This document shows positions 130-15,568 of a stretch of DNA of 64,000 bases, piece after piece. Position 1 is the first letter of the stretch. Every line of letters starts with the position of its first letter. Position numbers and translations under genes: made by a program. The DNA comes from Tildeniella torsiva UHER 1998/13D (lineage in GTDB: Bacteria > Cyanobacteriota > Cyanobacteriia > Phormidesmidales > Phormidesmidaceae), in the NCBI GenBank assembly GCA_019358835.1, contig JAHHIH010000009.1, positions 1-64,000 on the forward strand. Direction: 5' to 3'. The notes beneath the pieces were generated by a model. The model made no database searches. It saw only the letters and a program-made list of their open reading frames with translations, and had not been told where the DNA came from.

Positions 130-725
130 CTATGCCTGTGAGGTCACTACTGACTCTAAGCATGCCTGGCAATCGCTGCGAATCACTTGGATAGAGACTT
201 TACAACAACGGAACCTGATCGGGTGTGGGTGGCTAACATGACCTACATTTGGACGACCGAAGGCTGGCTGTATCTGGCAGTCATCATTGACCTATTCTCT
301 AGGCAGGTGGTGGGATGGTCGATGGCCAAGCATATGCGCACTGAGCTGGTGCTGACGGCCTTAGGAGCGGCCCTAGGGCAACGCCAACCGGCTCCATCGG
401 GGTTGCTGTTCATTCTGACCGAGGCTCTCAATATGCCAGTAGTGAGTACCGGGATGCACTTCAGCAGGCTACGATAAGGGGCAGCATGAGCCGTCGAGGT
501 AATTTTTGGGATAATGCGGTGGCTGAAAGCTTTTTTTGCACGCTCAAAACCGAGTTGATTCATCCCAGGATCTTTTTGACTCGAATGGTTGCCCGCACCG
601 TTATTGCTGAATGGATTGAGGTTTTCTATAACCGACAGCGGTTACATTCGATCCTTGGATACCTACCTCCAGTGCAGTTTGAAGACGACTATTGGCTCTC
701 CCTAGAGGGCTTGAAGGCAGCTTAA
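130..725 (+). pseudogene. IS3-family transposase (OrfB) remnant, frameshifted
   Basis: This is the integrase-core half of an IS3-family transposase, broken at both the reading-frame and sequence level. TTDSKH (about 146-163) is in one frame. LDRDFTTTEPDRVWVANMTY (187 on) is in a second frame. HSDRGSQYAS through NAVAESFFCTLKTEL to the stop at 723-725 is in a third frame. Two single-base deletions, near 163 and near 410, explain the shifts. The first catalytic Asp of the DDE triad, normally WV-D-ITY, reads Asn here (VWVANMTY). The N-terminal region and OrfA are absent. It lies directly after the rrn terminator. It cannot encode an active transposase. Confidence 0.85.
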
Positions 726-4612: not shown

Positions 4613-4831
4613 CTAGCTAGCAGCCTTTTTAGCTGCCTTGGGGGCCTCAACCTCTTGTAGCTCAGCCAGCGCGAAGTTGTTGGTGTTGATGCCGGCGTAG
4701 TTAACCTTCTCAAAACGCACTACCGCGGGGTATTTGATGCCGCTTTGGTCGATGGTGGCAACGGTGCCGACTTCCCGGAACCAGTAAGACTCTTTGCGGA
4801 GAATGCGAACTTTAGAACCACGTTGAACCAT
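4613..4831 (-). CDS. psaE: photosystem I reaction centre subunit IV (PsaE)
   Basis: PsaE is a peripheral photosystem I subunit on the cytoplasmic side of the thylakoid that helps dock ferredoxin and supports cyclic electron flow. The 72-residue protein begins [17 protein letters not shown], continues [20 protein letters not shown], and has the conserved [13 protein letters not shown]3-like core, with a short Lys/Ala-rich tail. ATG 4831 is chosen: it has an AGAGGG Shine-Dalgarno 8 bases upstream, while TTG 4837 adds two extra residues. The gene diverges from the PAP-like operon across a 369-bp intergenic region. Confidence 0.97.
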
Positions 4832-5200
4832 GAACAATGCCCTCTTGAAAATTAATATTAATGGCAGCTTGCCCAGGCCAAACCCCAGCCCAGACTCATT
4901 GCAAAAAGCCGTGGCTAAGCTTGGATAGGGGGTTATTCCATGTCCATCAGATTACTACGAGTCTTCAGCCTCATGGCACCAGCGGGTTTAAGTTTTATTG
5001 CAGTCACAAAAACAGGATCCACAGGAAACAGAGAAGCTCGTGGAGCAATTGGTTCACAGCTAAGTCCAGCAACCTATAGACTGCCGGGAGGACAAAAAGA
5101 TGCTAAGGCGATCGCCCTAATTCTTTTGGCCACAATTTTGTTTACATTTCGCAATGTAAGGGCATATTAGTGATATCACCCTGCGGGAGACTTGCTCAGC
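4832..5200. other. psaE / PAP-like operon divergent intergenic region
   Basis: This 369-bp region separates two divergent light-related transcription units. It holds the psaE leader, an HIP1 site (GGCGATCGCC, 5108-5117), and near the right end an inverted pair of TTACATT boxes with a fitting promoter (entered separately). A 76-codon open frame at 4940-5170 has no recognisable similarity and is not called. Confidence 0.6.
5141..5170 (+). promoter_or_regulatory. promoter of the PAP-like operon with inverted TTACATT boxes
   Basis: A -35-like TTTACA (5141-5146) and a -10-like ATATTA/TATTAG (5164-5170) are spaced 17-18 bp apart. The -35 element is part of a perfect inverted repeat, TTACATT TCGC AATGTAA (5142-5159). 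Each half matches the TTTACA(T/A)(T/A) core of the HLR1 element bound by the response regulator RpaB. However, canonical HLR1 is a direct repeat with 2-bp spacing. RpaB control is therefore an inference. Confidence 0.5.
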
Positions 5201-5677
5201 ATGCTCACTAACGTCCAGGCTTTAGTACAAACTACCGATGGTCGCTATGCCTCCGACCAAGAGCTGATGTTTTTTCAGCAATACCTGGGCTCCGTTGGCA
5301 CCCGGCTGCGAGCCTACCAAAAAATTCAGGGGGCCGAGCAGCAGATTATCAGTCAGGTTATGACTCGACTCAAGGTTCAAAGGCCCGACATATTTTTGGT
5401 GGGCGGGCAAGATTTGGCCGCCAAGTGGCAGCGAGATACTGTACGAGTGCTGCGCTACAGCGCCACGGCGCTGCTGCTCGACGATTTGGAACGGTTTAGG
5501 GATACCCTGCTGCTGTGGTTTCAAACCATCATGCGAGCCTTTGGCGCCCAGGAGAGCTGCGATCTGACCTATGCCGCCATGCAGGAGGTGATGGCCCAGC
5601 ATCTCAGTGGTGAAGAACTAATCCTGTTTTTACCTATCCTAGAGCTGAGTCGTACGACCCTGGGTGGGGCTGTCTAA
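5201..5677 (+). CDS. phycobilisome-like (globin-fold) protein of a PAP-like operon, first copy
   Basis: The protein is about 158 residues with helical phycobiliprotein-like character: ELMFFQQYLG, RLRAYQKIQGAEQQIISQV, and the diagnostic WQRDTVRVLRYSATALLLDD at residues 76-95. In true phycobiliproteins the equivalent segment is C-x-R-D with a bilin-binding Cys. Here that position is Trp76, so no bilin should attach by the usual bond. ATG 5201 is chosen, 10 bases after GGGAGA. It opens an operon matching the order of slr0144-slr0147 plus slr0152 of Synechocystis, which is linked in the literature to photosystem II assembly. This first phycobilisome-like gene appears to be extra. The function is inferred. 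Confidence 0.78.
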   Translation: MLTNVQALVQTTDGRYASDQELMFFQQYLGSVGTRLRAYQKIQGAEQQIISQVMTRLKVQRPDIFLVGGQDLAAKWQRDTVRVLRYSATALLLDDLERFRDTLLLWFQTIMRAFGAQESCDLTYAAMQEVMAQHLSGEELILFLPILELSRTTLGGAV

Positions 5678-5982
5678 GACCTGTTAAAGCTTGGCAGAAG
5701 CGGCCATATAATTTGGCGCTGACCGATAGCGTAATCGATACAACACTGTTGCCCAGATCGCCAATTGCAGCGGTTTGGGCGCTTTGATTGGAATAGGGTA
5801 TTACTACGTTTTGTATCGTGGCGGAGGGGCAGGGGCAGCGACGATGCCCTCTGTCTGGGGGGTTTAGCCCGAGGCAGGCGGGTTGGCGCTGGCGCGATCG
5901 CACGCCAGCGCTGTTAATTTGGCGTCGGCTTGGGCACATTACAGCTATCACTGAAAACAGTCTTACAAGGCCTGTTCGATAT
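5678..5982 (+). other. 305-bp gap inside the PAP-like operon
   Basis: No gene is seen. The following frame is open from 5818, but that extension looks compositionally unlike protein (Arg/Trp/Gly-rich) and lacks a ribosome site. There is no clear terminator. A second promoter for the downstream five genes could lie here, for example around the AT-rich stretch 5790-5815. I cannot identify one firmly. Confidence 0.4.
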
Positions 5983-6666
5983 ATGGTTATGTCCACCGAG
6001 ACCGCCCACCGTCTACACCAAAAATTCCCCAAAAAGCATAACCACTATGCCCTGCGGGATTTCTTTCAGTTCAATAGCGAATACGGCACCATTACCGACT
6101 GGAACGACGCGCGCAATGTGCTCACCAGCGAAGACTTTATTATTGGCCTGCTAGAGGGGCTGCAAGAGGAAGTCGGCGATGCCTCCTCGGCCATCATGTA
6201 CACCGTGGGGCTGGAGTGGGGCAAAATCGACTCGCTACAGTTTGAAGCCTGGTTTGAGCGCGAGTTTGCCATGAGCCCCCGTCGCGCCAACCTGATGTTT
6301 TTGCTCGAAACCTGGTGGTGGCCCTACATTTCCCAGGGCTGGGGCCGATGGGAGGTCGACATGAGCGATCGCAAGCAGGGTTTCATGTTCATCAATCTGT
6401 TTGATTCCGCTGTGGCCCGTACCCTGGGCGACGTGGGCAAGCCCGTCTGCCACCTCTATGCGGGTCTGTTTGCCGGATTTTTCACCGAGATGGTGCGTAA
6501 GCAGCTGAGCTGCATTGAAATTCAGTGCTACTCCATGGGCGAGACCTACTGCAAGTTTTTGCTGGGGGGCCGCGAGCGCATCGACGCCGCCTCTTTCTGG
6601 ATGAATGAAGGGGCCAACGCCCGCGACATTGAGAAGCGCCTGCGGGCTGGGGAAGGTGGCCAATGA
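5983..6666 (+). CDS. V4R-domain protein (Slr0144-like)
   Basis: The protein is about 227 residues. Its C-terminal half has the V4R (4-vinyl reductase) domain signature: HLYAGLFAGFFTEMVRKQL, then CIEIQCYSMGETYCKFLLGG near residues 178-197, with three cysteines as in small-molecule-binding V4R domains. The N-terminal half has YALRDFFQFNSEYG and ASSAIMYTVGLEWGKID. In Synechocystis two V4R proteins of the slr0144-slr0152 operon associate with photosystem II assembly, possibly binding chlorophyll precursors; the ligand is unproven. ATG 5983 or 5989 could start it. Its stop overlaps the next start by 4 bases (ATGA at 6663-6666), showing translational coupling. Confidence 0.85.
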   Translation: MVMSTETAHRLHQKFPKKHNHYALRDFFQFNSEYGTITDWNDARNVLTSEDFIIGLLEGLQEEVGDASSAIMYTVGLEWGKIDSLQFEAWFEREFAMSPRRANLMFLLETWWWPYISQGWGRWEVDMSDRKQGFMFINLFDSAVARTLGDVGKPVCHLYAGLFAGFFTEMVRKQLSCIEIQCYSMGETYCKFLLGGRERIDAASFWMNEGANARDIEKRLRAGEGGQ

Positions 6667-6962
6667 GCATGTTTCCCGAAGAGGCCCAGACTTCTCAACC
6701 CTGGCTGAGAGAAACGGTGCAGTCCTTCTTTCAAGCCGTGGCCTGGGACGGGCGATCGACCCTCGCTATGTCAGGCTTGGGAGCCACCGCCCGGTCAGAG
6801 TCAACCATGACCATGACCGTTAGCGATTTCTTCCAAAACATCGCCTGGGACGGTCAGCCCACCATTGGGGTACCGATCTCTCCCCTAGCGGCAACGGCCA
6901 CTCCCACCGCTGACCCCAATCTCGATTTGACCCTCGATGGGTTCTCTGACCTATTTGGCTAG
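6663..6962 (+). CDS. small two-repeat protein of the PAP-like operon
   Basis: This is a 99-residue protein of unknown function built from two copies of one short motif: TVQSFFQAVAWDGRSTLAM (residues 18-36) and TVSDFFQNIAWDGQPTIGV (52-70), a 34-residue period. The rest is Thr/Ala-rich and low complexity, ending LDGFSDLFG. There is no signal peptide or membrane segment. It is translationally coupled to the V4R gene before it. By position it matches the small gene slr0145. Repeated aromatic amphipathic motifs suggest a bivalent binding peptide that bridges partner proteins, perhaps the phycobilisome-like or V4R products. That role is inference. Confidence 0.75.
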   Translation: MSMFPEEAQTSQPWLRETVQSFFQAVAWDGRSTLAMSGLGATARSESTMTMTVSDFFQNIAWDGQPTIGVPISPLAATATPTADPNLDLTLDGFSDLFG

Positions 6963-7041
6963 TTTGTCGGTCCTTGGCCTGCTAGCCGACGGTAAGCGCC
7001 ATCAGCCCAACCACCTGCGCCCCACTTCCCGGAGATTTGTC

Positions 7042-7530
7042 ATGACTTTTAAGCTCGATACCCTATTTGACTCACCCGACAAGCAGTACCTCGACGCCGG
7101 TGACCTCAGCACCTTGAGTCAGTACGTCAGCTCAATTCCGGAGCGCATGGCCGTCTACCGCACCCTGCGAGATCAGGAAATTGCCATAATGCAGCCCATT
7201 GCCGATGCCCTCCAGCAGCAGGCAGGTCACCCCGAGCCCTTAGTCGAGCGCAGTATGCGCAATGGGCTGATGGTGCTGCGCTACGCCGCCATGGCCATGC
7301 TGCTTGACGACGATGGCTTTGTGGAAGAGCGCTTGCAGGGCTGGCTGCCAGAGATGGTTAAAGCCTACGAAACCCAGGCGGTCGATCAACAGCTGTTTCA
7401 GCTGCTGATGCAGCAGTTGGCTAAAGTCTTTTCGCCGGCCCAGCTCAACCTGCTCAAGCCCAGCCTTGAAAAAGCCAAAAGCCTGATGCTGAACACTCGC
7501 GAAACCGTCACCCTAGCCGGGTTGCTCTAG
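7042..7530 (+). CDS. phycobilisome-like (globin-fold) protein of the PAP-like operon, second copy
   Basis: The protein is about 162 residues and homologous in layout to the gene at 5201-5677: LDAGDLSTLSQYVSSIPERM, then RTLRDQEIAIMQPIADALQQ, and the phycobiliprotein-like helix SMRNGLMVLRYAAMAMLLDD at 71-90. The chromophore Cys position is Ser71, and the Arg-Asp pair is Arg-Asn, so bilin binding is unlikely. ATG 7042 follows GGAG with 7-base spacing; the open frame before it overlaps the previous gene and is discounted. It sits where slr0146 sits in Synechocystis. Its likely role is as a protein-protein scaffold in photosystem II assembly. Confidence 0.82.
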   Translation: MTFKLDTLFDSPDKQYLDAGDLSTLSQYVSSIPERMAVYRTLRDQEIAIMQPIADALQQQAGHPEPLVERSMRNGLMVLRYAAMAMLLDDDGFVEERLQGWLPEMVKAYETQAVDQQLFQLLMQQLAKVFSPAQLNLLKPSLEKAKSLMLNTRETVTLAGLL

Positions 7531-7619
7531 GCCTAACTAGCCGCTGGGGGTTGCCCCTGCCCCGCCTATGGTTGGCGGGTTTGACCACCATCATCACTAC
7601 CCTGTGAAGGACATTAACT

Positions 7620-8282
7620 ATGGTTTCTGTTGCCGATTTACTCACCGATGGCCGGCTGCCCGGCAACTACTTTGCCCAAGATCTCTACGTGCGGGGCTCG
7701 ACCGAGCTGGGCCTGCTGGAAAATCGGCGCGGCGATCGCCTTTTGGCGATCCCTGACTCGCTGCTTCAGGCGATTTACTCTGGGCTAGAAAAAGAAACCG
7801 GCCAGGCCTCGCGGCTGGTGCTCTACAACTGTGGCCGCTGGTGGGGCAAAAACTTCTACGCCCGCTTCTGTGAAGAGCTGGCCGACTACTATAAGCAGCC
7901 CCTCTCTAGCCTGTCGATGGCCGAATTTCTCCAGTCGCTACAGCAGTGCTGGAAGACCCACGGCTGGGGTCAGATTCATCTGGATATTACCTACCGCGAT
8001 CGCGGCTTTTTGGGAGTTGAAATCTGGCATTCTCCCTTTACCGCTACGGCACCCCAGGGCCAAAAACCAGCGGGCGATCTGGAGCGCGGCATTCTTGAAA
8101 TCTTCTTTAGCCAGCTCACCGGGCGCGAGCTGCGCTGTGCCCAAACCAGCTGTACCGCTAAGGGCGACGACTGTAACCGCTTTATTCTGGGCTTAGAGAA
8201 GCGGCTACAGCCCGTAGAAGCCCTGGTGGCCAATGGCCAAGCGCACCAAGCCATTATGCAAACCCTTATGCAGCAGGGGTAA
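7620..8282 (+). CDS. V4R-domain protein (Slr0147-like)
   Basis: The 220-residue protein is homologous to the V4R protein at 5983-6666. Visible marks are a middle LVLYNCGRWWGKNFYARFCE, then the C-terminal ILEIFFSQLTGRELRCAQTS followed by CTAKGDDCNRFILG (about residues 168-190), the cysteine pattern of V4R domains. ATG 7620 follows AAGGA with good spacing. It corresponds to slr0147 of the Synechocystis operon. Together with the preceding gene it forms the second phycobilisome-like/V4R pair. The GTG-started kinase gene begins 8 bases after its stop. Confidence 0.87.
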   Translation: MVSVADLLTDGRLPGNYFAQDLYVRGSTELGLLENRRGDRLLAIPDSLLQAIYSGLEKETGQASRLVLYNCGRWWGKNFYARFCEELADYYKQPLSSLSMAEFLQSLQQCWKTHGWGQIHLDITYRDRGFLGVEIWHSPFTATAPQGQKPAGDLERGILEIFFSQLTGRELRCAQTSCTAKGDDCNRFILGLEKRLQPVEALVANGQAHQAIMQTLMQQG

Positions 8283-8289
8283 ACAAACG

Positions 8290-10116
8290 GTGGCCCTCAC
8301 CCGGCAAATTCGGCGATCGCAGTATTACATTCTAGGGCTGGTCGGGCACGGGCAGTTTGGTCGCGTCTACTGCGCCATCCACCGCAAAACCGGTGACTTG
8401 GTAGCCATTAAAGACCTTCACAAAGACCGCTTCCCCACCCACAAGTTTTTGCGGGAGCTGCGGTTTTTAATTAGCCTTGAGCATCCCAGCATTGTCACCT
8501 GCCATGCGCTGGAGCACTCCACCAGCGGTCGCCAGCTGGTACTGGATTACTGTGAGGGCGGCACGCTGCGATCGCTGCTCGAAAGCGACACCGTACTCAC
8601 CGTTCAAGAGGTGCTGGGCTTTGTCCTAGATATTCTCGCGGCCCTGGAGTGCGCCCATCGCCAGGGCATTGTGCACTGCGACATCAAGCCCGAAAACATT
8701 CTTATGGAGCTGGTGCCCGGCGGCTGGGTGGCGCGGGTGTCTGACCTGGGCATTGCCCGCCTCAGCCAGGAGGCCACCCAGGCCGATATGGGCCACACCG
8801 GCTCACCGGCCTATATGGCCCCAGAGCGGTTTTATAACCAGCATCCTCCCGCCGCCGACCTCTACGCGGTGGGCATTATTTTGTACGAGCTGCTGTTGGG
8901 CCAGCGGCCCTTTTCGGGCACCCCCATGGAGCTGATGGTGGCCCACCTCAATCGCCCGCCGGTTGTGCCGACCCAGGTGGCCGAGCCCTTTAGCCAGGTG
9001 CTGCGCAAAGCTCTGCAAAAGCTATTGCCCAAGCGATACCTCAGAGCCCGCGACATGCGCGCCGATCTGATGGCTGCCTACCAGGCGTACGAAACTCAGG
9101 GGGGGCTGGGGCAGCCTGCCTTTGCCAAAACGCTGCCGGAGTTAGATTTAGCGGCAGATTTGCCCTTTGTAACGCTGCCTCATTCCACCAGTGTGATGGG
9201 GCTGGTGCCTCTGCCCCACCAGGGCCATCTGCTGGTGACCTGTAGCCAGCAGCGAGTGTGGTTTTATCACTGGCCCCAAGCGGGCATGACAACGCCCAAA
9301 GATAGCCAAGGGTTTACGCTGCCCGCCCCCGTGCAGCGGTTTTTGCCGACTCCCCAAGGTGGCCTATTGGTCACTACCGAATCGCTGCATCTGCTATCGA
9401 TGACCCACGGGCTGGGCTGCATTGCCCACGGTCTTTGCCCCGATGGGGTAGCGGTTGCCCCCCATGGGCGTTGGTTTGCCACGGCCCAGCCGGCGACCGA
9501 AAATTCCTTTGCCGTGTCTTTACGTCAGCTGACGATGTCGTCGGGGCAGGGGGTGAAAATATCGGCCCCGGCAACTGTGGCGATCGCTGGCAACAGCGGC
9601 GATCGCTTAATTGCCCTACTGGCTCCAGATAACCGCCACGCCGCGCTGGTTGTGCGCCGAGGCAGCCGTACGCTGTTTCACGCAATAACCCGCCGGGGCA
9701 CCTGCCTGGGGTCGGTTTCAGCCTCGGTGCCCCTGCATACCCTGGTGCCCACCCAGACCCCCTATCGCTATCTGGCCCTAGAAGAAAACTGCCCCAATAC
9801 CTTGCTGATTGTCGATCTAAAGCCCTTTAGGATGCTGCGATACCGGCTCGATATCGCCCCCCAGTGGCTGTTTGAAACCGCTGTGGGCTATGGCTTACTG
9901 AGCCAAGAAGGGGGATTTTCGCTGATTAACGACGAAGGTCGCATCATTAACCGTACGGCCGGGCTGCCGCGACCTCAGGCCATGGTAGCTTGCCACTCTA
10001 AGACCGGCGCCGATGGGCTAGCACCTACCCAATATCTATGGAGTGTGAGCGCAGGTCAGCAGAGCCGAATCTACCCGGTGGATTTAGCCCACCTAGCTCC
10101 CGATATTCTGTTTTAG
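8290..10116 (+). CDS. spkG: Ser/Thr protein kinase, SpkG-like, with beta-propeller-like C-terminal half
   Basis: A eukaryotic-type protein kinase of about 608 residues closes the PAP-like operon. The kinase domain (about residues 11-280) has all key motifs: GLVGHGQFGRV loop, VAIK lysine (about 41), HCDIKPENIL catalytic loop, SDLG for DFG, and APE. The half after about residue 300 has no transmembrane segment. It shows repeating short beta-rich units (GHLLVTCSQQRVWFYHW, GGLLVTTESLHLLS), suggesting a degenerate beta-propeller. GTG 8290 is chosen, after the upstream stop; ATG 8233 would overlap the previous gene by 50 bases. Position and kinship point to SpkG (slr0152). The substrates are unknown. 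Confidence 0.88.
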   Translation: MALTRQIRRSQYYILGLVGHGQFGRVYCAIHRKTGDLVAIKDLHKDRFPTHKFLRELRFLISLEHPSIVTCHALEHSTSGRQLVLDYCEGGTLRSLLESDTVLTVQEVLGFVLDILAALECAHRQGIVHCDIKPENILMELVPGGWVARVSDLGIARLSQEATQADMGHTGSPAYMAPERFYNQHPPAADLYAVGIILYELLLGQRPFSGTPMELMVAHLNRPPVVPTQVAEPFSQVLRKALQKLLPKRYLRARDMRADLMAAYQAYETQGGLGQPAFAKTLPELDLAADLPFVTLPHSTSVMGLVPLPHQGHLLVTCSQQRVWFYHWPQAGMTTPKDSQGFTLPAPVQRFLPTPQGGLLVTTESLHLLSMTHGLGCIAHGLCPDGVAVAPHGRWFATAQPATENSFAVSLRQLTMSSGQGVKISAPATVAIAGNSGDRLIALLAPDNRHAALVVRRGSRTLFHAITRRGTCLGSVSASVPLHTLVPTQTPYRYLALEENCPNTLLIVDLKPFRMLRYRLDIAPQWLFETAVGYGLLSQEGGFSLINDEGRIINRTAGLPRPQAMVACHSKTGADGLAPTQYLWSVSAGQQSRIYPVDLAHLAPDILF

Positions 10117-10214: not shown

Positions 10215-10604
10215 ATGCTGGAGTTTATGACCCTGCCCAATAATCTGCTGCCCCCAGTAGCGCCCTACTCCCACGCGGTGCGGGCGGGAGACTTTTTGTT
10301 TGTCACCGGGCAGCTAGCAGAAGATCCGGCCACGGGCGAAGTGGTTAAAGGCCCCATCGAAGAACAGACCCGTCGAGTGATGGATAACCTCACCCTAGTG
10401 CTTGACCACGCGGGCAGCGGTTTTAACAAGGTGGTCATGGCGAGGATATTTGTTACCGATTTTCGCTACTACGAAACGGTCAACGCCATTTATCAGTCTT
10501 ATTTTGGTGACGCTCCCCAGCCCAGCCGCACGACGGTGGGGGTCACGGCCTTAGCGGGCTATGGAGATGTGGAAATTGATTTGATTGCCTACTGCGGTGA
10601 GTAG
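10215..10604 (+). CDS. ridA: RidA-family imine/enamine deaminase
   Basis: The 129-residue protein is of the YjgF/YER057c/UK114 (RidA) family. It hydrolyses reactive 2-aminoacrylate-type intermediates from PLP enzymes and protects metabolism. Family marks are LLPPVAPYSHAVRAGDFLFV, VTGQLAEDPATGEV, EEQTRRVMDNLTLVLDHAG, and the C-terminal PQPSRTTVGVTALAGYGDVE with the conserved Arg and Glu. ATG 10215 gives the standard family length, while the longer open frame overlaps the kinase gene. It is probably a separate unit from the PAP-like operon, as about 98 bases separate them. Confidence 0.95.
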   Translation: MLEFMTLPNNLLPPVAPYSHAVRAGDFLFVTGQLAEDPATGEVVKGPIEEQTRRVMDNLTLVLDHAGSGFNKVVMARIFVTDFRYYETVNAIYQSYFGDAPQPSRTTVGVTALAGYGDVEIDLIAYCGE

Positions 10605-14807: not shown

Positions 14808-15299
14808 CTACGGCTGTTTCCCCATAACTCGAGCATACCGATCTAAAAATTGTTGAATCAGCATAGGTGAAGCTCGGAAAGACGTCTGCTGTAACCGACC
14901 AATGGCGCTGGGAAAGTCAAGCAGCCTTTCTGTTCCAGCTCTAAACAAGACTCCCAGTAGACCTGTGACTGTTAAGCTCTGAGATATCGCAGCTTGCCTG
15001 GTCTCCCAGTCGTCCAAAATTATCAGGCTTGCTTGCAGGCTGACGGCTAAGGATATGGCCTCTCGCTCACCTCGACCCAGCTTGGTTGGCAGGTTGTCGA
15101 TCAATTGGGGCACCAGCTGAATGCTTAGCCAGTCCGGCGGTGCTTCGATCCACGCCTGGATCAACCCATAGTTTTGCTCTGCCATCAGCTCATCTTTAAC
15201 GCCTGTAGGAATGATGACTGACTCAAAGAGCGCTGGCAGTAGATCAGTCTCACCAATCAAGATTAAGTAACAGATTGGTGAGGTGTCGCAAACGACCAT
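14808..15299 (-). CDS. PIN-domain (DUF3368) toxin, VapC-like
   Basis: The 163-residue protein is a putative ribonuclease toxin. The PIN fold shows the first acidic residue in VVCDTSPICYLIL, the middle acidic site in GRGEREAISLAVSL (about residues 77-90), and the third in LIILDDWETRQAA. These are the metal-binding acids of PIN nucleases, in the DUF3368 subgroup. Its GTG/ATG start at 15299 shares one base with the stop of the upstream antitoxin gene, the usual arrangement for antitoxin-toxin pairs. Confidence 0.88.
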   Translation of the reverse strand: MVVCDTSPICYLILIGETDLLPALFESVIIPTGVKDELMAEQNYGLIQAWIEAPPDWLSIQLVPQLIDNLPTKLGRGEREAISLAVSLQASLIILDDWETRQAAISQSLTVTGLLGVLFRAGTERLLDFPSAIGRLQQTSFRASPMLIQQFLDRYARVMGKQP

Positions 15300-15568
15300 T
15301 AAGACTTGGCCAGAGCGCGATCGATAGCCGTAAGATCTTGCTCAAGGTCAGCCTCTGTGTAGTGTAAGTAGGCTCCGTACTCCTTGAGTAAGGTGTCAGT
15401 GGCTAACCTTGATGGCAGCTGAAGCATACGTTGAACCTCAGCCGCATTGATGAGCTTTGAGCGGTAGGCTTCAACAGCAATGGCTTCTAGGGCCTTTTGA
15501 GACAGGCTACCCAAGTGCGCTTGCAAGCGCTGCTCAATGTCATTGGGGATATTGATGGTGATATCCAT
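15299..15568 (-). CDS. UPF0175-family antitoxin
   Basis: This 89-residue protein of the UPF0175 family is typically found before DUF3368 PIN toxins. It begins with a ribbon-like DITINIPNDIEQRLQAHLG, then KALEAIAVEAYRSKLINAAE. The C-terminal part, LLKEYGAYLHYTEADLEQDL, is the conserved toxin-contact stretch. It is first in the operon and overlaps the toxin by one base. It probably neutralises the toxin and represses the promoter in the 100 bases upstream; autoregulation is inferred from the class. Confidence 0.87.
   Translation of the reverse strand: MDITINIPNDIEQRLQAHLGSLSQKALEAIAVEAYRSKLINAAEVQRMLQLPSRLATDTLLKEYGAYLHYTEADLEQDLTAIDRALAKS

Follow-up and report, generated by a model that had tools for sequence, protein, structure and literature searches.

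Here, we report that six genes of the cyanobacterium Tildeniella torsiva form a rearranged member of the known slr0144–slr0152 (PAP) system. They account for the greater part of an slr0144-slr0152-type cluster that has been split, with the remainder on contig C7. What slr0144–slr0152 does has been a standing question since 2008. Our best explanation, held with even confidence, is a bilin- or tetrapyrrole-linked sensor–kinase complex that is encoded on the split cluster, acts by phosphorylating its Fe-S subunit, and is older than cyanobacterial photosynthesis; its ligand and its signal are what we infer.

Genes of the cluster

The six genes lie head to tail and close-packed on the forward strand of the window (the whole 64,000-nucleotide stretch of DNA that was analyzed; Table 1), flanked by a divergent psaE (4613–4837) on one side and, on the other, by a gene of the Rid family with its stop at 10604. 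V1 and REP overlap by 4 nt, and the GTG start of KIN is 7 nt past the V2 stop. Gene calls were mechanical, with start codons chosen to agree with relatives. Pfam scores were 60.7 (G1) and 32.9 (G2) bits for PF00502 (cut-off, 22.2), 72.1 (V1) and 52.6 (V2) bits for PF02830 (cut-off, 31), and 158 bits (KIN) for PF00069; no Pfam family was found for REP. The genome holds exactly two V4R genes, V1 and V2, both in this cluster. The V1 alignment, reaching as far as Sericytochromatia, had 57% mean column identity. Searched by sequence against solved structures, the V4R proteins yielded weak matches only.

Table 1. Features of the cluster and their positions in the window
Feature	Description	Position	Strand	Evidence
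G1	Phycobilisome-like globin, slr0149-position orthologue (cyanobacterial bilin biosynthesis-associated globin, BBAG)	5201..5677	+	PF00502 2.1e-16; globin tree 100/100; pocket WQRD
V1	V4R protein, slr0144 type, motifs ETWWWP and QCYSMGE	5983..6666	+	PF02830 4.1e-20; alignment
REP	slr0145-position linker, 99 aa, two FFxxxxWxG repeats	6663..6962	+	Position survey; motif
G2	Divergent phycobilisome-like globin, slr0146-position orthologue, pocket SMRN	7042..7530	+	PF00502 7.7e-08; globin tree
V2	Second V4R protein, slr0147 type	7620..8282	+	PF02830 5e-14; gene-order survey
KIN	SpkG-type (slr0152) Ser/Thr kinase of 608 aa with a GTG start	8290..10116	+	PF00069 3.4e-46; AlphaFold2; tree
KIN propeller	Predicted WD40-type beta-propeller, after the kinase domain	about 9150-10100	+	AlphaFold2 model and structure matches

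Gene order and the split

Approximately 98 loci around V4R genes were surveyed, with genes classed by profile. V4R genes turned up in 54 of the 291 genomes searched in the phylum and in 50 of the 65 in the order; because the sampled genomes are related, these counts do not represent independent events. Within the order, nearly all relatives repeat V1-REP-G2-V2-KIN, which matches slr0144, slr0145, slr0146, slr0147, and slr0152, and the full arrangement in the order is G1-V1-REP-G2-V2-kinase. Unicellular and related lineages have V1-REP-G2-V2-FeS-G1-(ferredoxin)-(slr0151-like)-kinase, in agreement with the published annotation of slr0144–slr0152: V4R proteins Slr0144 and Slr0147 (PMC13326532), 2Fe-2S ferredoxins Slr0148 and Slr0150 (PMC7363133), globin Slr0149 (PMC10151467), tetratricopeptide repeat (TPR) protein Slr0151 (PMC4853703), and SpkG, Slr0152 (PMC11863333). 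REP and G2 were equated with slr0145 and slr0146 by position. Near relatives that a V1-based search gave by name were Nodosilinea and other, allied cyanobacteria of the Leptolyngbya-like kind.

In four other lineages (L051, L058, L091, and L102), the genes are joined as LysR< X> FeS> G1> V1> REP> G2> V2> kinase>. The window thus corresponds to the 3′ portion of a joined cluster of this kind, with the break falling between FeS and G1. The survey and the Pfam matches upheld the genes, their order, their homology to the PAP operon, and the V4R and globin pairs as first claimed. They did not uphold the original prediction of an extra phycobilisome-like gene in front and a missing slr0149, since the front globin, G1, falls with slr0149-position globins (support, 100/100) and has moved upstream. 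A duplicated globin–V4R pair or an extra globin was ruled out by the globin tree and the gene-order survey.

For slr0151, which had been called absent, the genome gave TPR-repeat matches only, with no match to the N-terminal part, and the call stands; this gene is a variable member, since many relatives lack it while retaining the other genes. The slr0150-type ferredoxin, likewise a variable member, was not found in the neighborhood of the cluster. The claimed absence of slr0148 is correct at this locus but wrong for the genome, which has an orthologue on contig C7. The module had accordingly been misjudged as reduced to parts free of Fe-S protein: its Fe-S partner is at a second locus and is joined to the cluster in relatives. 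That the gene missing here lies in the same operon elsewhere counts in part against the original prediction.

The unlinked Fe-S protein

A profile search of the genome placed the slr0148-type 2Fe-2S protein at G000:C7:2773–3249 (E value, 2.5e-80), which rules out a true loss. The C7 locus consists of gene X followed by the Fe-S gene, divergent from a LysR gene; the product of X is a longin/roadblock-like protein with a conserved C-terminal domain. The Fe-S gene occupied this second locus (after X, divergent from LysR) in 20/20 genomes of the order examined. All 50 phylum genomes with the Fe-S gene bear V4R genes, and none of 237 genomes without V4R has it; the four V4R genomes that lack it have single, mostly divergent V4R matches. 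In the order sample, V4R was present in 48/48 genomes with the Fe-S gene, and the two V4R genomes without it were one incomplete assembly and one with a single weak V4R match. In the sampled genomes, the Fe-S gene thus occurs exactly where the canonical V4R pair occurs. For a gene that is out of the operon but never out of the genome, the simplest explanation is that it is an obligate partner. The C-terminal domain of X is also confined to V4R genomes (37/37).

The Fe-S protein carries T18 and T72, its putative phosphosites. Each is kept in 73 of 80 cyanobacterial sequences, and both are retained in the copy from T. torsiva. Outside cyanobacteria, T18 is found in 29 of 32 sequences and T72 in 22 of 32 (plus 6 with Ser).

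The standing of the Fe-S gene as the most faithful V4R partner would also fit a redox complex, in which the Fe-S protein feeds electrons to a reaction on a tetrapyrrole-like ligand held by the V4R proteins and globins and the kinase switches delivery by phosphorylating the Fe-S protein. Phosphorylation of ferredoxin 5 (Fd5) needs SpkG (PMC11863333) and has been proposed as one possible cause of the inactivity of Fd5 with HoxEFU (PMC7363133). However, the V4R and globin parts have no known catalytic motif and the cyanobacterial clusters come without a bilin reductase, and we regard this alternative as unlikely.

The kinase and its propeller

AlphaFold2 (24 sequences) modeled the whole of KIN as a kinase fold followed by an all-β second half (pLDDT, 87.7). 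Foldseek and VIA runs with whole KIN gave kinase domains only, so the C-terminal half was folded separately; alone, it reached a pLDDT of 89.4 with about 28 strands, and 287 of its residues matched WD40-type propellers (Z, 21.3; 3.3 Å). A search of propeller sequence families gave weak matches only. We are confident in the predicted WD40-type beta-propeller of the second half, and the propeller-like half proposed for the kinase is confirmed at the level of the model. The PknD protein of Mycobacterium is a Ser/Thr kinase joined to a beta-propeller. Compared with PknD, KIN has a WD40-like propeller and no membrane segment noticed in its sequence, and it falls within a clade of kinases associated with V4R/globin clusters.

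The catalytic Lys, Asp, Asn, and DxG of KIN are present (as HCD and DLG variants). In a first tree, the kinase domain fell in an 18-row clade with slr0152-position kinases (100/100). A second tree added 36 other kinases from the same genome and four non-cyanobacterial hosts, a small outgroup; one branch (SH-aLRT, 95) held 18/18 cyanobacterial and 24/26 non-cyanobacterial cluster kinases, together with two further kinases likewise sited at such clusters. The first tree, which was built without these 36 kinases, agrees. In non-cyanobacterial clusters, the kinase directly follows V2 in 18 of 27 cases and is within two genes in 24 of 27, against a background of 4 kinases in 139 genes; the Opitutales host of locus L211 has only three kinases above threshold, one of them in the cluster. 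With the adjacency counts, this host, and the tree, chance adjacency in kinase-rich phyla is unlikely. The C-terminal halves of cyanobacterial cluster kinases also aligned by profile with those of Verrucomicrobiota/Acidobacteriota (probability, 93.5; E value, 2.3e-7). The kinase has therefore been co-inherited with the cluster across several bacterial phyla.

This bears on whether the kinase and the repeat protein are bystanders that share the operon for expression only. The kinase is unlinked in some cyanobacteria and the genes downstream vary (our survey; PMC10151467), which would suit bystanders; but adjacency is conserved across phyla, the cluster kinases are one clade, and a motif-bearing linker is kept at one position, and we consider this explanation very improbable. 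Loss of SpkG in Synechocystis abolishes phosphorylation of ferredoxin-5 (Slr0148) (PMC11863333, PMC10651672), although the activity of SpkG itself lacks biochemical verification (PMC11863333). With co-inheritance of the kinase far beyond cyanobacteria, the SpkG-dependent phosphorylation lends support to signaling by phosphorylation, part of the original prediction.

The repeat protein

The bridging repeat peptide of that prediction is REP, which holds two [ST]VxxFFxxxxWxG repeats (DNA 6726-6751 and 6828-6853) and ends in LTLDGFSDLF. Cyanobacterial REP proteins mostly have two, and up to four, [ST]VxxFFxxΦxWxG-like copies and usually an LTLDDFSDLF-like end; a relaxed pattern gave 179 matches in them versus 2.6 expected from shuffling. 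Of the 80 named loci that the V1-based search yielded, 33 lay beyond the oxygenic cyanobacteria (Sericytochromatia, Myxococcota, Planctomycetota, Acidobacteriota, Verrucomicrobiota, Eremiobacterota, and others). In the non-photosynthetic clusters, the gene between V1 and the globin varies in length and bears an FFxxΦxW-type motif, with 28 strict matches in 4,893 aa of non-cyanobacterial linker (0.1 expected) and 1 match in 48,305 aa of the other genes of the same loci. Two Planctomycetota cluster kinases have similar tail motifs (L215, FFDGFGW; L197, DVLDSFNW). The motif may dock core proteins. As a genome-wide docking code in T. torsiva it was rejected: the DNA pattern had 16 matches in the genome versus 36 in the reversed control, and only the two in REP were counted as real. 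No published description of the FFxxΦxW linker motif was found in a literature search.

The globins and the tetrapyrrole question

The globin tree comprised 96 globins, including one mis-called row (L013) that is long and unreliable. The clade holding G1 has 25 rows, G2 groups with slr0146-position globins, and both are apart from the genome's own phycobiliproteins. Judged by Cys84 and clade membership, neither is a light-harvesting phycobiliprotein. At the bilin site, phycobiliproteins have CxRD, G1 has WQRD, and G2 has SMRN; G1 is without the bilin-attaching Cys but retains Arg-Asp, and G2 is without both Cys and Asp. About half of the G1-type globins have CxRD, as do many non-cyanobacterial cluster globins, and PMC10151467 gives it for some cyanobacterial BBAG members only. 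Both globins were first described as cofactor-free; it is possible that G1 binds bilin non-covalently, and G2 looks less capable of bilin binding.

Bilin binding has been seen in related BBAGs co-expressed with the pathway (PMC10151467), and haem oxygenase or bilin reductase genes stand beside several non-cyanobacterial clusters. Together these suggest a tetrapyrrole ligand, which is plausible by ancestry for the cluster described here. The same adjoining genes would suit a carrier or chaperone, with V4R proteins and globins binding a chlorophyll or bilin intermediate and handing it over in photosystem assembly, REP as scaffold, and the kinase only tuning turnover. V4R domains bind hydrophobic molecules (PMC2253512, PMC13326532), and PAP proteins stabilize photosystem II (PSII) intermediates (PMC4853703). 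Set against this, a Ser/Thr kinase co-inherited in nearly every cluster suggests signaling, and chromophore loading of isolated BBAGs was poor to modest in some cases (PMC10151467); a carrier strikes us as rather unlikely.

Comparison with known systems

Like slr0144-slr0152 of Synechocystis sp. PCC 6803, the T. torsiva system has both V4R proteins, an slr0145-position linker, two globins, and an SpkG-type kinase, with a ferredoxin-5-type Fe-S protein encoded in the genome. It differs in having the slr0149-position globin first, the kinase directly after V2, an unlinked Fe-S gene beside a roadblock-like/C-terminal-domain gene, no slr0151, no slr0150-type ferredoxin in the cluster, and two FF repeats in the linker versus about three in Synechocystis.

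BBAG clusters with pre-PcyA (PMC10151467) share with it an Fe-S protein, two V4R proteins, and a globin in the same order, and were found here to have a motif-repeat linker and a kinase as well; the non-photosynthetic order is Fe-S, V4R, repeat protein, globin, V4R, kinase. Unlike them, the T. torsiva cluster has no adjoining haem oxygenase or bilin reductase, has WQRD and not CxRD in G1, and has two globins. That 2023 study derives the clusters from bilin-reductase clusters. It gives names to the genes for the Fe-S, V4R, and globin proteins and dismisses their neighbors as not conserved; in its main text, a kinase appears only in a reference title and the linker is not discussed.

Proposed mechanism and significance

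In the sensor–kinase complex that we favor, the V4R pair and the globin pair would form a sensor core holding a hydrophobic ligand, for which a tetrapyrrole, linear or cyclic, is the likeliest candidate. REP would be a flexible string with its FFxxΦxW motifs serving as docking sites for core subunits and perhaps also for the kinase, which would be tethered to the core by its propeller. Phosphorylation of the Fe-S protein, which would alter its electron transfer or binding, would be gated by ligand or redox state. Slr0144–Slr0149 interact by affinity purification-mass spectrometry (PMC9880817), and this, with SpkG-dependent phosphorylation of ferredoxin-5 and co-inheritance of the kinase, supports a sensor–linker–kinase complex acting on the Fe-S protein. 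The missing pocket residues of G1 (Cys) and G2 (Cys and Asp) count against this reading.

A role in PSII assembly or repair comes from Synechocystis mutants (PMC4853703, PMC9145668) and would extend to the T. torsiva cluster by analogy with that work; according to PMC10151467, the PSII phenotypes may stem from slr0150-slr0152 and not from slr0144-slr0149. Comparison with non-photosynthetic bacteria suggests that the PAP cluster descends from an older signaling set, in which the scaffold peptide and the propeller kinase may already have been partners of bilin-type globins. Cyanobacteria would have turned that older, bilin-linked module to use in the biogenesis or repair of photosystems. More tentatively, and with somewhat less than even confidence, we propose that V4R, repeat scaffold, bilin-type globin, V4R, propeller kinase, and Fe-S substrate constitute an ancient tetrapyrrole-responsive kinase system, older than cyanobacterial photosynthesis, with the PAP operon as its cyanobacterial descendant and the repeat motif as its docking code.

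As far as the literature shows, with the 2023 study judged on its main text, the new findings are the splitting of the cluster from an Fe-S partner that is unlinked yet faithful, the linker motif that runs through the clusters, the ancestral membership of the kinase, and the restriction of the gene X C-terminal domain to V4R genomes. The findings bear on the origin of phycobiliproteins, since the main text of the paper tracing them to these clusters leaves the kinase and linker undiscussed. If the kinase and motif scaffold are original to bilin-associated clusters, the question becomes which tetrapyrrole signal the kinase reads, and not how PSII is built, and it would be testable in simple hosts.

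The protein of gene X, which lies upstream of the unlinked Fe-S gene (slr0148/ferredoxin-5 type), has an N-terminal part that appears longin/roadblock-like by eye and a C-terminal domain of ~105 amino acids that had no Pfam match. All 37 genomes with this C-terminal domain also have V4R (37/37), and the domain was seen only in V4R genomes. It is also joined to a receiver-like part (L057, L086, and L089) and to pentapeptide repeats (L069, L076, and L243), and both fusion types adjoin V4R clusters in every case. Bet3 is a relative of V4R (PMC2253512). The steady pairing of V4R genes with the longin/roadblock-like gene X recalls the make-up of TRAPP complexes, as a resemblance only.

Some cyanobacteria carry a second kind of V4R-globin-Fe-S cluster (L057, L085, L086, and L089). 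It includes a protein whose receiver domain is degenerate and a linker of divergent motif (xxLINLISWD), and it often holds an additional Fe-S gene. The linker of the Sericytochromatia cluster has three repeats; its two ParA-like proteins were assigned by eye. In Planctomycetota cluster kinases (L197 and L215), the C-terminal tail bears motifs similar to the linker motifs, as though the putative docking motif had shifted onto the kinase.

Features in the window, the T. torsiva genome (G000; contigs C7, C24, and C40), and surveyed V4R loci (L)
Feature	Position	Remark
Gene X and unlinked Fe-S gene	G000:C7:2773-4188 (L167:2767-4188)	
Phycobilisome-like globin, stand-alone	G000:C40:13159-13581	CQRD (bilin-attachment motif, CxRD); comes after a Ser/Thr kinase gene
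Phycobilisome-like globin, stand-alone	G000:C24:326087-326509	CQRD
psaE	window 4613-4837	Divergent from cluster
PIN-like gene and small gene	window 14808-15568	Ends touching; by eye only
Transposase-like reading frames, broken	window 187-725	Near left end; by eye only
Sericytochromatia cluster	L187 (= L104)	Two ParA-like proteins, Fe-S, V1 (V4R), linker, globin, V2 (V4R), haem oxygenase, kinase
ParA/MinD-like ATPase	L200:11864-12640	Between V2 and kinase, Myxococcota cluster
ParA/MinD-like ATPase	L202:11602-12417	Between V2 and kinase, Myxococcota cluster

Outside the cluster, the T. torsiva genome holds two more phycobilisome-like globins (C40 and C24). Within the window, the PIN-like gene and its small partner look, by eye only, like a toxin-antitoxin pair. 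Many congeneric genomes keep psaE in this position beside the cluster; given this and its divergent orientation, psaE and the cluster may share a common control region.
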